Shown here piece by piece: positions 1-34,685 of a DNA stretch of 34,860 bases. Source of the DNA: an uncultured Eubacteriales bacterium. GTDB lineage: Bacteria; Bacillota; Clostridia; Christensenellales; Aristaeellaceae. How positions within the stretch are numbered: position 1 is the first letter of the stretch; each line of letters begins with the position of its first letter. The position numbers and the translations under genes were made by a program. A model generated the notes under the pieces. It saw only the letters and a program-made list of their open reading frames with translations, was not told the origin of the DNA and did no database searches. The stretch lies in the NCBI GenBank assembly GCA_902798105.1, contig CADBVG010000011.1, positions 1 through 34,860 of the forward strand. The letters are read 5' to 3'.

Positions 1-60
1 AAACCTTGACTGCCCGCCAGGCAGCCTGCGCCTTTTGCAAGTCAAATCTGACTAAAATTC
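1..60 (-). repeat. Partial copy C of the hairpin repeat family (cut by window start)
   Basis: Read on the minus strand, this stretch aligns with the centres of the two complete elements at 24643-24812 and 25905-26086. It shares GAATTTTAGTC, then TTGCAAAA, then a 19-nt hairpin at 8-26 with 7-bp arms and loop TGGCG, then AAGG. The hairpin arms differ in sequence from those of the other copies but still pair. The rest of the element would lie before base 1, so its ends cannot be judged. No CTTAAGGAAA terminal repeat is visible on the inner side. Confidence 0.6.
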
Positions 61-2865: not shown

Positions 2866-3570
2866 ATGAAAATGACTCGAATTGCTGCAATCATTCTGGC
2901 GGTACTGATGCTGCTGACCGCCCCGATGGCCCTGGCCGAGAGCACCATGACGGTGCAGGGCGTGGGCACCGTCAAGGTGAAGTCCGATCGCGCTGGCATC
3001 AGCCTTGGGGTACGGGAGACCGACAGGGAGCTTATGGCGGCCCAGACCCGGGTGAACGAGAAGATCGCCGACATCATCAAGGCGCTGAAGGCCATGGGCG
3101 TGGCTGAAGAGGCCATCACCACCAACGGCATCAGCATCTATCCCAACTATAACTACGACGTGGAGGAGACGATCAGCGGCTATACCGCCAGCAACACCCT
3201 CTACGTGTTGGTAGCGGACGTGGACAACACCGGCGCTTACATCGACGCCGCCTTTGCCGCGGGAGCGAACAGCCTGGACTATGTGGAGTTCAGCGCCGTC
3301 GAAACCGATGATGCCGCCGCGAGGGCGCTGCAGCTGGCGGTGGACAGCGCGAGGGCCAAGGCGCAGGTGCTCGCCGACGCCGCGGGCATGAAGCTGGGCG
3401 GTGTTTTGGAGATTCGCGATGACGGCAGCTCCGGCTATGTCAGCGGCGACTTCTACGCAAAGACCAACGCGGCAGAGGCCGACGCGGGCGCAGGCACCGG
3501 CGTGATGGCCGGGATGCAGACCGTTTACGCCAGCGTGAGCATCACCTTTGCGCTGGAGGACGCGGAATAA
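2866..3570 (+). CDS. Secreted SIMPL-domain (DUF541, YggE-like) protein
   Basis: The 234-residue protein starts with a clear signal peptide (MKMTRIAAIILAVLMLLTAP, cleavage expected after ALA at residue 24). The mature part is one SIMPL domain: STMTVQGVGTVKVKSDRA at its start, TTNGISIYPNYNY near residue 85, and the typical long helix ALQLAVDSARAKAQVLADA. E. coli YggE, a relative, has been linked to oxidative stress; no enzyme activity is known for the family. ATG 2866 is preceded by GTGGAGG at 2851-2857. It follows the sigma/anti-sigma pair by 154 nt and may be one of its targets, which is inference from position only. Confidence 0.85.
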   Translation: MKMTRIAAIILAVLMLLTAPMALAESTMTVQGVGTVKVKSDRAGISLGVRETDRELMAAQTRVNEKIADIIKALKAMGVAEEAITTNGISIYPNYNYDVEETISGYTASNTLYVLVADVDNTGAYIDAAFAAGANSLDYVEFSAVETDDAAARALQLAVDSARAKAQVLADAAGMKLGGVLEIRDDGSSGYVSGDFYAKTNAAEADAGAGTGVMAGMQTVYASVSITFALEDAE

Positions 3571-5430: not shown

Positions 5431-5547
5431 TGTAGGGGCGCCGATGCGCCGCCCGCCGGGTGCAACGTGCATTTCGTACCCGGGCGGACGCCGTATCGGC
5501 GCCCCTACAGCTGTTTTATGCAGCGATATTCAATTTGAGACAGCCCC
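5431..5547. repeat. Long GTAGGGGCGCC palindrome plus TGAGACAGCCCC end (repeat copy R2)
   Basis: Arms at 5431-5461 and 5478-5509 form an imperfect inverted repeat of about 31 bp, beginning TGTAGGGGCGCC and ending GGCGCCCCTACA, with a short central spacer. TTTGAGACAGCCCC at 5534-5547 equals the right outer arm of the complete nested element at 13844-13974, but the matching left outer arm is missing here. The element lies 13 nt downstream of the isomerase stop codon and could help end that transcript. Confidence 0.8.
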
Positions 5548-22223: not shown

Positions 22224-22241
22224 AACGGATAACGCATAATA

Positions 22242-22313
22242 TAGCGGCGGTGTCTGCGCCGCCACAGTACCTCCGCAAAGGGGATACCGTGGCGGCACAG
22301 GCACCGCCGCTGC
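22242..22313. repeat. GTAGCGGCGG-type palindrome between converging genes (copy R4)
   Basis: Arms TAGCGGCGGTGTCTGCGCCGCCA (22242-22264) and TGGCGGCACAGGCACCGCCGCTGCA (22289-22313) form an imperfect long stem with a central spacer. It lies 19 nt from the addA stop and 20 nt from the stop of the converging phosphoribosyltransferase gene, and may end both transcripts. Confidence 0.75.
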
Positions 22314-22332
22314 AAAACTTGATTACACTGTA

Positions 22333-24555: not shown

Positions 24556-24642
24556 ATTGGAATTGCGCGTGGTGAGGACGTGATTCTAAAACCCTGAACA
24601 TGCAATTCCGGCGTCTTTTCCGCCAAAACTGCGTTGTCAAAC

Positions 24643-24812
24643 CTTAAGGAAATGCCGCATAATCGAGTGGTTCAGTAGCGGAGGGAATTTTAGTCGATTG
24701 CGAACTGCAAAAAACGAAGGTTACCTGACGGGTAATCGAGATTTTTGCAGGCAGCAAGCGGCTGAAATTCTCCCGCTAATGGGCCGCGAGCATTGTGCGG
24801 TGTTTCCTTAAC
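24643..24812 (+). repeat. Hairpin element A (170 bp) with CTTAAGGAAA terminal repeats
   Basis: The terminal inverted repeats are CTTAAGGAAATGCCGCATAAT (24643-24663, one base beyond the quoted 20) and its counterpart at 24792-24812, with three mismatches. Inside, a second imperfect stem pairs TAGCGGAGGGAATTTTAG with the region at 24761-24778. A third pairs CTGCAAAAA (24705-24713) with TTTTTGCAG (24742-24750). At the centre a 19-nt hairpin (24719-24737, loop TGACG) closes it. The whole folds into one extended hairpin. It contains no reading frame. It lies in the 503-nt gap between the hydrogenase and hemolysin-III-like genes; besides this element, copy D, the terminator and one GTAGCGGCGG half-site, nothing else in that gap was recognised. 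Confidence 0.8.
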
Positions 24813-24860
24813 TTGCCGCCAGTAAGCCTGCGGTTTTCCGCCTTGTTTTGACGGAAATCC
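24812..24860 (-). repeat. Copy D of the hairpin core, abutting element A
   Basis: On the minus strand it reads ATTTCCGTCA, then GCGGAAAACCGCAGG, then CTTACTGGCGGCAAG. This matches element B (ATTTTCCGTCA, CGCAGGCTTGCTGGCGGCAAG) in the same order. Its inner hairpin has one A-C mismatch and two G-T pairs. It starts exactly at the right terminal repeat of element A, so two insertions or a rearrangement may be stacked here. Confidence 0.6.
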
Positions 24861-24961
24861 ACTCGAACTTGCATATCCCGGACTTAGCAACACATCCAGG
24901 AAAACAGAATGTTTTCCAGGTCGGCGGGTTTCGACGGAACCTATCGACAATTATTCAAAGA

Positions 24962-24976
24962 TGTAGCGGCGGCGCC
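24962..24976. repeat. Half copy of the GTAGCGGCGGCGCC palindrome (R8)
   Basis: TGTAGCGGCGGCGCC at 24962-24976 equals the left arm of the element at 34046, but no right arm follows. It lies 15 nt beyond the stop codon of the hemolysin-III-like gene. Confidence 0.65.
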
Positions 24977-24991
24977 CGCGTTGCCATTGTA

Positions 24992-25666
24992 TCATATCAC
25001 ATACAACAATATGCACAGGAAGTGCAGCAAACTGCCGATTACCGTAAACACATGGAAGGCCGTGTGTGCGTAGCGGCGCTTTTTTCCCACGAGGTAAAGC
25101 GCGGCGCCCACGGTGTAGGCGACGCCGCCCGACAGCAGCAGCCAGAACCCGGATGGGGTGATCAGCCTGTAGATCAGGTCGATGCGCACCACGATGGCCC
25201 AGCCCATCAGCAGGTAGCAGATCATCGAGAATGTGGCGTACTTCTTCAGGTCGATGGCGTTGAAGGTGATGCCCAGGGCCGCCAGCGCCCAAATCACGCC
25301 GAACAGCACCCATCCCAGGGCGGAGTTGTAGGGGCGAATGGCACACAGGGCCATGGGGGTGTAGGTGCCCGCGATGAGCAGGAAGATGCTGCAATGGTCC
25401 AGCACTTGCATCACCCGCTTGCCGTGAAGCTTCGGGCTCAGGCCGTGGTAGACGCTGGATATGGCGTACAGCACCAGCATGCAGAAGGCGAATACCGAAC
25501 CGCAAACCACGCTCCAGGCGTTGTGATGCCGCGCGCCAAACACCGGGCACAGCACCAGCGCCAATATCCCCAGCGCGCCGCCGAGGATGTGGGTGATCAT
25601 GTTCCAAATCTCCTCGCCCCGGGTGTAGTCGGGAAGCGCGCGTTCAATCAGCGGCGTTCGTTTCAT
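24992..25666 (-). CDS. Hemolysin III / PAQR family membrane protein (YqfA-like)
   Basis: The 224-residue protein has seven predicted membrane segments from about residue 25 to 222. Family signatures are present: WNMITHILGGALGI at the first helix, YAISSVYHGLS, LDHCSIFLLIAGTYTP, and the late AFHVFTVIGSLLHF, which together supply the conserved Ser, Asp and three His of the metal site shared with PAQR receptors. Despite the name, haemolysis is not the established role; a link to lipid or membrane homeostasis is suggested. ATG 25666 follows AAAGGAGGT by 8 nt, so the open frame upstream of it is not used. It stands alone, flanked by repeat elements on both sides. Confidence 0.93.
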   Translation of the reverse strand: MKRTPLIERALPDYTRGEEIWNMITHILGGALGILALVLCPVFGARHHNAWSVVCGSVFAFCMLVLYAISSVYHGLSPKLHGKRVMQVLDHCSIFLLIAGTYTPMALCAIRPYNSALGWVLFGVIWALAALGITFNAIDLKKYATFSMICYLLMGWAIVVRIDLIYRLITPSGFWLLLSGGVAYTVGAALYLVGKKRRYAHTAFHVFTVIGSLLHFLCILLYVI

Positions 25667-25803
25667 GGACGACCTCCTTTCGGATAAATGATGGCGGATA
25701 ATGCGGGCAGAACCCCTCGGGTGCTTCGCACCAGCGCCCCTTTCAGGCAATGTCGTCAAATAAGCGGATAGGGTGAAAAAACAGATGTAGGAAGGAAGCC
25801 CGG

Positions 25804-25881
25804 TGTAGGGGGGCCGTTGCGGCGCCTACCCTTCAACGACACGAAAAACGTACTTGGCGGGCGGCGCAACGCCGCCCCTAC
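25804..25881. repeat. GTAGGGGGGCC/CCGCCCCTAC palindrome (copy R5)
   Basis: Arms GTAGGGGGGCCGTTGCGGCGCC (25804-25825) and GGCGGCGCAACGCCGCCCCTAC (25860-25881) pair imperfectly around a spacer of about 34 nt. It lies beside element B in the 478-nt gap between two minus-strand genes. Confidence 0.75.
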
Positions 25882-25904
25882 GGGGCATTCGCGTCTAATC
25901 ATTC

Positions 25905-26086
25905 CTTAAGGGAATACCGCATAATAAGGGTGGTTGGCTGGCGAGTGAATTTTCCGTCAGGCGCGCCTGCAAATTTCGCAGGCTTGCTGGCGGCAAGTCA
26001 AGGAATTTGCAAAGGAATTTGCAGGATGTGCATGGCGGAAATGGCACCGCCAGACATGCCGCCCGTTTGTGCGGTATTTCCTTAAG
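25905..26086 (+). repeat. Hairpin element B (182 bp) with CTTAAGGAAATACCGCA terminal repeats
   Basis: The terminal repeats (CTTAAGGGAATACCGCATAA at 25905-25924 and its inverse, 26066-26086) match those of element A. The interior again forms a second stem (TGGCTGGCGAGTGAATTTTC with the region near 26036-26056) and a third (CCTGCAAATT at 25966-25975 with AATTTGCAGG at 26016-26025). The central 19-nt hairpin is at 25981-25999 with loop TGGCG. A 12-bp unit AAGGAATTTGCA is tandemly doubled at 26000-26023. No reading frame is present. The rest of this 478-nt gap holds only repeat R5 and a short palindrome at 26112. Confidence 0.8.
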
Positions 26087-33996: not shown

Positions 33997-34045
33997 TTGG
34001 GAGACCTTTCTTTCTCGGGTGGAAAACATGTTCCCCGCATGGATA

Positions 34046-34114
34046 TGTAGCGGCGGCGCCTGCGCCGCCATAAATACCCGGTAATACCGTGGCGGCCTGG
34101 AGGCCGCCGCTACA
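34046..34114. repeat. GTAGCGGCGGCGCC palindrome overlapping a stop codon (copy R7)
   Basis: Arms TGTAGCGGCGGCGCCTGCGC (34046-34065, continuing CGCCA) and TGGCGGCCTGGAGGCCGCCG (34090-34109, continuing CTACA) pair over about 25 bp. The right arm contains the TAG stop codon (34110-34112) of the DUF3267 gene, so the insertion or its spread may have set that gene's 3' end. Confidence 0.8.
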
Positions 34115-34685
34115 AAGTCATTGTGCGCCGCATGATCCGCATTCTTACGCCGGTGTCCTGGATCAGCAAATCGCCCTTCAAACGGGCCAAGGCCCAAGCG
34201 GTGTAAATATCGCCCGCAGAGCCGGACAGATTGGAGATCTGTATGATCCACAGCGGCCAGAACCACGCCTGTGGCAGCATGGCGATGGCGATTTGCAGCG
34301 CCGCGCCCCAGACCACCACCGGCGCGAGGGCGGTGATGATGTGTGATTTTTTGTCAAACCACACCGTGCTGCCCGCATAGGCGTAGGGCAGCTTCAGGCC
34401 ATAGATGGGCTTCACGCTTGACAGGGCGAACATGGCGATGCCGTGGGTCAGCTCGTGCAGCGGTATATAGGCGAGCAGCGCCAGCCCCAGGCAGGGCCAC
34501 ATATACCATTTGGAGGCCATCAGCCGCCAGGAGGGCCCCACTGGCACGGCCAGCAGCCCGACGATCACCGGTACGACGATCAGCGCCAGCGACAGTATCA
34601 CCAGCGCCTTCACCTGCCTGCGGTTGCGCATGAAGTCCAGCGTCCCGGCGTAGCGATAGCCCGGGGGAAGGGTTTTGTGGTTCAT
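34110..34685 (-). CDS. DUF3267 family membrane metalloprotease-like protein
   Basis: The 191-residue membrane protein has about four hydrophobic segments (near 28-48, 62-82, 118-135 and 138-155). The second ends in PLHELTHGIAMF, whose HELTH is a zinc-binding HExxH. The segment PYAYAGSTVWFDKKSHIITA follows, as in the DUF3267 family, which resembles site-2 protease-like peptidases. The substrate is unknown. AAAGGAC precedes ATG 34685. The last codon and stop lie in repeat R7, and an ATTCTGATTT hairpin stands 19 nt upstream of the start. It is followed at 113 nt by the ABC-F gene on the same strand. Confidence 0.87.
   Translation of the reverse strand: MNHKTLPPGYRYAGTLDFMRNRRQVKALVILSLALIVVPVIVGLLAVPVGPSWRLMASKWYMWPCLGLALLAYIPLHELTHGIAMFALSSVKPIYGLKLPYAYAGSTVWFDKKSHIITALAPVVVWGAALQIAIAMLPQAWFWPLWIIQISNLSGSAGDIYTAWALARLKGDLLIQDTGVRMRIMRRTMTL

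Follow-up and report, generated by a model that had tools for sequence, protein, structure and literature searches.

What kind of sequence keeps a hairpin paired while the letters of its arms change? The window (the whole stretch of DNA that was analysed, 34,860 nucleotides from an uncultured Eubacteriales bacterium) raises this question with two similar elements, A and B, and a third related one, C. A first-pass annotation described a 19-nt hairpin in each of the three and proposed either a family of structured RNAs or a mobile element that depends on the hairpin. Read by eye, the three hairpins have the positions, arms and loops described; pairs 3/17, 5/15 and 6/14 do change on both sides, and pair 2/18 is a G-T wobble in each. 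Both halves of the proposal find support below, though the dependence of mobility on the hairpin does not.

A dispersed family and its copies in the window

The hairpin family is real, but the 19-nt centre was too small a unit. A and B fold end to end, and the hairpin is the entire element (Table 1). B consists of 160 bp plus a 12-nt internal duplication, which is the sole reason for its extra length over A. The whole-length fold of A has an energy of -99.6 kcal/mol (z -13.2) and that of B -109.8 kcal/mol (z -11.7); in neither case did any of 200 shuffles fold as well. C had been taken for a partial copy of A and B. It has their core but different ends, and is a relative rather than a truncated copy. 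It is preceded by ATAG on its own strand, and its kind of end is also present in relatives in the rumen Clostridiales genome RUG340 (L112).

Table 1. Features of the elements; positions are those of the window unless a locus is named.
Feature	Position	Strand	Remarks
Element A	24648..24807	+	imperfect hairpin over its full 160 bp; ends GGAAATGCCGCA / TGCGGTGTTTCC
Target duplication TTAA, left of A	24644..24647	.	single TTGA at the matching place in RUG340 (by eye)
Target duplication TTAA, right of A	24808..24811	.	
Apical hairpin of A	24719..24737	+	19 nt, the hairpin first described
Element B	25910..26081	+	172 bp; ends GGGAATACCGCA / TGCGGTATTTCC
Target duplication TTAA, left of B	25906..25909	.	
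Target duplication TTAA, right of B	26082..26085	.	
Apical hairpin of B	25981..25999	+	
Element C, cut by the contig edge	1..96 (about)	-	core of A and B, other terminal repeat GGTACCTCTAAAAACTATCGC; exact end putative
Apical hairpin of C	8..26	-	
Putative left portion of the older, similar element hosting A	24604..24643	.	resembles RUG340 L112 (by eye); boundary approximate
Putative right part of the older element hosting A	24812..24850	-	boundary approximate
Long-form copies	L112 (RUG340) 3195-3424; L028 1501-1713; L054; L136; L205; L208; L143		

RUG340 is 88-92% identical over the longer matches. At the site of A it reads CCC-TTGA-CTTGCCGCC, and the window reads CC-TTAA-A-TTAA-CTTGCCGCC (placed by eye, the automatic alignment having been misplaced). 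The sequence that follows A resembles the tip of B (positions 24804-24832 are 93% complementary to the apical part of B), which suggests that the target of A was an older, related element. At the site of B, RUG340 carries a different subfamily of the element in a longer form.

The annotation had suggested a covariance-model search of the genome and its relatives, and this was productive. A model built from 15 copies gave 133 matches in the own draft genome, 120 of them full length (150 of 1279 candidates were scored); the remainder were cut at contig edges or internal. The same model matched in 10 of 297 genomes of the order, from five families. As expected of Miniature Inverted-repeat Transposable Elements (MITEs), the ends form terminal inverted repeats: the end pattern TTAAGGRAATRCCGCA has 167+138 matches in the genome at up to two mismatches and its reversed control 2+4 (305 versus 6). 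The many dispersed copies of about 160 bp are also free of transposase inside, a further MITE property. Candidates are most often 160 bp long (18 of 121), a length shared (168 bp with both flanks included) by 14 copies in eight other genomes, one of them from another family of the order. An unrelated false pair (L053 2775-2942) was excluded from all counts.

Within the bacterial family, the end pattern at one mismatch occurred in 20 of 150 genomes and the reversed control in 14, so that most single end matches are due to chance. The own genome had 123+106 matches in this draw and six congeners had 0, 7, 0, 0, 2 and 0. The burst of copies is thus recent in this species. Contigs C14, C27, C29, C50 and C100 of the own genome, G000 (L044, L049, L050), start inside the element, whose outer end lies some 95 bp further in. 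Because several draft contigs begin within the palindrome, the repeat explains some of the assembly breaks.

Ends, target duplications and a partner transposase

The elements end in GGAAATACCGCA and are bordered by 4-bp duplications of NTAN targets. Among 121 distinct own candidates, 55 have identical palindromic flanks (mostly TTAA), 25 have identical non-palindromic flanks (TTAG, ATAA, TTAC, GTAA, CTAA and others), none has flanks identical by inversion, and 41 have neither. The identity is direct and not inverted, and therefore reflects target duplication, which MITEs are expected to show and which is seen here as identical 4-bp flanks in 80 of the 121. An end is common to another candidate in 22 candidate pairs, so part of the 41 are false pairs. 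One copy is nested within another at a TTAA (L023). Inverted ends, target duplications of 4 bp, nested insertion and an empty site together uphold the mobile half of the original proposal. A and B belong to the non-autonomous transposons (MITEs), and their ends are of the IS5 type.

Several unusual copies were seen. A miniature of about 36 bp (L109 3430-3474, G071) has the same ends with almost nothing between them, and is flanked by TTAA and CTAA. One copy (L106 1185-1544, G128) is split by a different palindromic repeat (CTCCCTCAGTCAAGCT...). In MT837850.1 (L290), a human faecal contig labelled bacteriophage, positions 584-752 hold a complete copy between two TTAA sites. This contig was matched by A, and a phage origin was considered and rejected; its long open frame presumably belongs to a protein resembling DNA polymerase I, and on this ground the contig is interpreted as bacterial. 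A search of viral_contigs gave no exact match to one end pattern, and a plasmid search with B gave no match.

The ends led to a transposase family. In G094 (L108) the same end, TTAAGGAAATACCGCACA, lies about 50 nt before the start of a 346-codon transposase, which matches the IS5 family model NF033581 at 300 bits and contains the PF01609 and PF05598 domains. A similar end (at least 12 of 14 bases) is found in seven of the eleven loci that carry this type of transposase or its relatives; in the other four (L169, L171-L173) the best end reaches at most 11 of 14 bases. The IS5 ends in G055, G070, G054 and G425 match GG[CA]AA[CT]ACCGC, and those in G079 and G010 are one base off. A complete IS of 1138 bp in G055 (L166) has CTAA on both sides and ends in GGCAACACCG[TC]ACAA, and the IS in G079 is flanked by TTAA and ATAA. 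The elements thus resemble the IS5 family (NF033581) in ends up to GGCAACACCGCACAA and in the 4-bp target duplication. They differ in that the IS carries a transposase, and the stretch common to IS and MITE extends up to about 15 bp, after which the sequences diverge.

No element core was found in 24 loci with a transposase or a lone end. The own draft genome (89.7% complete) gave no match to PF01609 and none to the L108 transposase. Its single match to PF05598 (DUF772) was rejected as the partner because the locus is without the ends. A relative of the L108 transposase is present in four of 17 chosen carrier genomes, and is close in two. As the kind of enzyme that mobilises the family, an IS5-type transposase is well supported. 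We infer that A and B were moved in trans by an IS5_4-type transposase that was lost from, or is missing in, the draft genome. IS5-type DDE transposases act on double-stranded DNA.

The fold and its strand

The compensatory changes first noticed in three hairpins are real and extend along the element. In an alignment of 26 copies from the own genome and twelve others (A5), whose rows are related so that the counts are not independent, 41 of 46 predicted pairs show double changes that keep the pair, against 25.6 in shuffles, and none of 500 shuffles scored as high. Paired cells make up 92.3% in these 26 copies, compared with 72.1% when shuffled; sliding the partner by one to three columns lowers the figure to 38-47%. 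Such covariation beyond controls is characteristic of structured RNA. In 27 further loci, which like all class-wide loci were chosen by a model that rewards pairing, the pair cells comprise 480 Watson-Crick, 67 G·U, 19 A·C, 56 other and 134 gapped.

A process that keeps DNA complementary could also maintain a palindrome, so the strand is what matters. Under a DNA process, G·T and A·C should be equally frequent on a given strand. In a strand-blind self-alignment of 38 copies (relatives oriented by the covariance model), G·U outnumbers A·C by 212 to 71, with 150:62 in 28 relatives and 62:9 in ten own copies. When only the sequence is used to set orientation, it is always one homologous strand that gives the better fold, in 112 of the 114 own copies free of N; an earlier count gave 113 of 115, its two exceptions being a nested and a composite candidate. 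The same holds for all ten clusters below 75% identity and for all 27 loci oriented in this way from other families, a 28th locus (L268) being missed by the sequence-only profile. With wider flanks and orientation by the model, the figure is 25 of 26, and the exception (L269) folds slightly better on the other strand. The consensus energy is -49.2 forward and -31.2 for the reverse complement. Strand-specific pairing of this kind is a second property of structured RNA.

Fixed non-canonical features point in the same direction. A G·U wobble at columns 81/99 is present in 24 of the 26 copies and recurs in 20 of the 27 further loci; a U·G at model pair 8/80 is present in 17 of 19. Beneath the apex lies a 3x2 internal loop (CGMAG facing CRAG), with CGAAG or CGCAG in 22 of 26 copies and CGAG or CAAG opposite in 21 of 26. 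The internal loop further down has a tandem G·A in only 7 of 26. Selection on a single strand, most likely RNA, would predict both the strand bias and the fixed wobbles, which DNA palindromy alone would not.

These results bear directly on one alternative, an ordinary hairpin MITE with no single-strand function, whose arms are kept complementary by template switching in DNA or by the repeated birth of palindromes. Its IS5-type ends and target duplications would account for the spread, and its young copies would drift as observed. MITE transcripts in general are said to form stable stem-loops (PMC10969869). Under this alternative one would not expect the better fold to fall on the same strand in 10 of 10 clusters and in 27 of 27 loci, nor G·U to exceed A·C, and correction between the arms would erase the wobbles and mismatched loops that are fixed across families. 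We regard it as unlikely.

If the fold is selected, the next question is where. Private changes were collected from 103 own copies in four subfamilies, with the group L022 (four copies) and elements longer than 235 bp left out (the latter also from the gene-context count below) and clustered or gap-flanked differences skipped. In these young copies the ratio of G·U to A·C is 10:10, or 18:14 and 23:15 under other filters, which also contain 21 and 24 other pair-breaking changes, respectively. At paired sites 35 of 53 private changes break the pair. Ten old clusters, represented by a single copy each, show 68:22 strand-blind (summed by hand) and 47:10 at the structure columns. Old and young copies differ with a Fisher p of 0.007 to 0.09; without the three fixed wobble columns the ratios are 27:10 and 10:10 (p 0.14). 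Changes in the arms that break pairing had been named in advance as evidence against the family. On this criterion the result is split: young copies carry mostly such changes, and old lineages keep their pairing. That copies drift and source lineages are constrained is supported by these modest numbers but not proven.

Gene context was assessed for 92 copies from crude gene calls, without comparison to a genome baseline; a further 18 lay too close to the end of a locus. Convergent gaps hold 29 copies and divergent gaps 8, and between tandem genes 21 copies are sense and 34 antisense. The elements could be cis-acting mRNA elements (RNase III sites, stabilisers or attenuators) selected at each insertion, as proposed for the Correia and ERIC repeats. 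An extremely stable hairpin adjoining genes would suit such a role, and the excess in convergent over divergent gaps, read without a genome baseline, has the direction given for the BOX, RUP and SPRITE repeats (PMC3049150). The lack of sense preference, on crude gene calls, speaks against selection in place on read-through mRNA, and regulation in the sense direction was rejected on this count. The mostly pair-breaking changes of single copies also argue against it, and we consider this role very improbable.

Folded single strands of DNA are familiar from integron attC sites and from IS200/IS605 and REP ends. The folded strand here could likewise be DNA, the plus strand being exposed in replication, conjugation or transformation and acted on by a hairpin-reading enzyme. 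G·T wobbles and a choice of strand would leave the same signature. The duplicated NTAN targets and terminal repeats, on the other hand, are those of a DDE transposon. Insertion that depends on the lagging strand would probably give an orientation bias, and none is marked relative to the neighbouring genes (79 co-directed versus 105, p 0.065). A DNA fold is in our judgment quite improbable.

Reach of the core, comparison with known repeats and proposed role

An 87-nt core model matched in 38 of 391 genomes of the class, from 15 families, and several genomes reach 11 matches, the most that could be counted; with up to 9 candidates scored per genome in the order search and up to 11 in the class and phylum searches, all per-genome copy numbers there are lower bounds. 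The structured half of the original proposal, recast as a single-strand family, is supported by this distribution together with the covariation and strand asymmetry. In a draw from the phylum the core was found in 4 of 398 genomes: the own genome, one other of the class and two from outside the class. At least four kinds of end surround the same core: GG[AC]AA[CT]ACCGCA; GTAGACGATGATTCA; GGAGAGACTGATTAAAT and its like; and GGTACCTCTAAAAA. Ends of the GTAGACGATGATTCA type in L143 have GTAA on both sides. In three loci (L264, L269, L270) the model finds the core in both orientations, the two separated by about 34 nt, and predicted folds suggest a similar arrangement inside one larger element in L260 and L263. 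The double-core elements have ends like GGCGGTGCTTCTTAGGGA, and a multi-arm structure is predicted for them.

MITEs are thought to need their ends only. A fold kept on one strand in 15 families, inside different ends, indicates that the interior matters as well.

The family was compared with the available catalogues. At the gathering score of Rfam 15 no family covers the window elements, and a search with 20 of the 28 class-wide loci yielded tRNAs only. Permissive searches of eight loci (E<=1), a double-core locus (E<=5) and the A-B region (E<=5) gave only sub-threshold, chance-like matches. The sX2 family was rejected as a match to A because its score, 14.6 bits, lies far under the cut-off of 40. 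The element resembles Rfam families in its compensatory pairs and fixed non-canonical loops, and would add a widespread RNA family to those in Rfam 15. The available portions of open-access literature on MITEs, structured repeats and end sequences contain no description of this repeat family, and a search for the end sequences themselves gave one unrelated paper.

The pneumococcal BOX and RUP repeats, like the element here, are multi-copy MITEs with a tight predicted RNA fold that includes the ends (PMC3049150). The same account reports that their ends match those of an IS (ISSpn2 and IS630-Spn1), and that BOX, RUP and SPRITE are overrepresented between convergent genes. BOX is modular in this account (PMC3049150), and here one locus (L051) has its apical hairpin twice. 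BOX and RUP are described there from S. pneumoniae, S. mitis and, rarely, other streptococci, whereas the core here spans 15 families of a class. Features here that are not met in the available part of the account are strand asymmetry and the occurrence of one core within several kinds of end, and the paper does not use the word 'compensatory' (PMC3049150). BOX repeats are the nearest in kind.

The Correia and ERIC repeats belong to other hosts and have other ends than the element here, which in contrast to them shows no sense-strand preference. They resemble it as short mobile repeats with long stems, and their transcripts can be cut by RNases (PMC10969869).

Taken jointly, the observations are probably best read as IS5-ended MITEs in which the folded plus-strand transcript of the source copies aids persistence or spread. 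An IS5_4-type transposase acting in trans on the element ends would spread the copies. The plus-strand transcript of active source copies is predicted to fold into a rod, and the rod may help the element to persist or spread. Single copies would decay without clear constraint, and the lineages that produce new copies would keep the fold. From general biology, the likeliest partners of the rod would be a double-strand-specific enzyme such as RNase III, which might process it, or a protein of host or transposon origin that recognises the internal loop below the apex. The family lends itself to asking whether an RNA promotes the spread of a DNA transposon or makes it tolerable to its host.

A bolder reading extends this to a class-wide mobile structured RNA, with one rod core in at least four kinds of end and with single cores or two opposed cores, so that either strand carries one. 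The fold would be required by the source copies, and DDE-type spread would therefore depend on the structure of the element's own transcript. This extension is tentative.

Two other repeats were encountered in the course of this work. In the long form of the element the apical loop is extended by about 64 nt (GTTCGAGCGCCCGGAAAACnnTCCnGTGGAnnGTTTTC...), with varying hairpins of their own. This module is not confined to the element: L129 has it in tandem and L232 as a lone copy, and it is thus another small repeat. A different dispersed repeat, with inverted arms of about 30 nt (GTAGCGGCGGCGCC or TGTAGGGGCGCC), lies in the window at 5431-5509, 22239-22316, 25804-25881 and 34039-34121.
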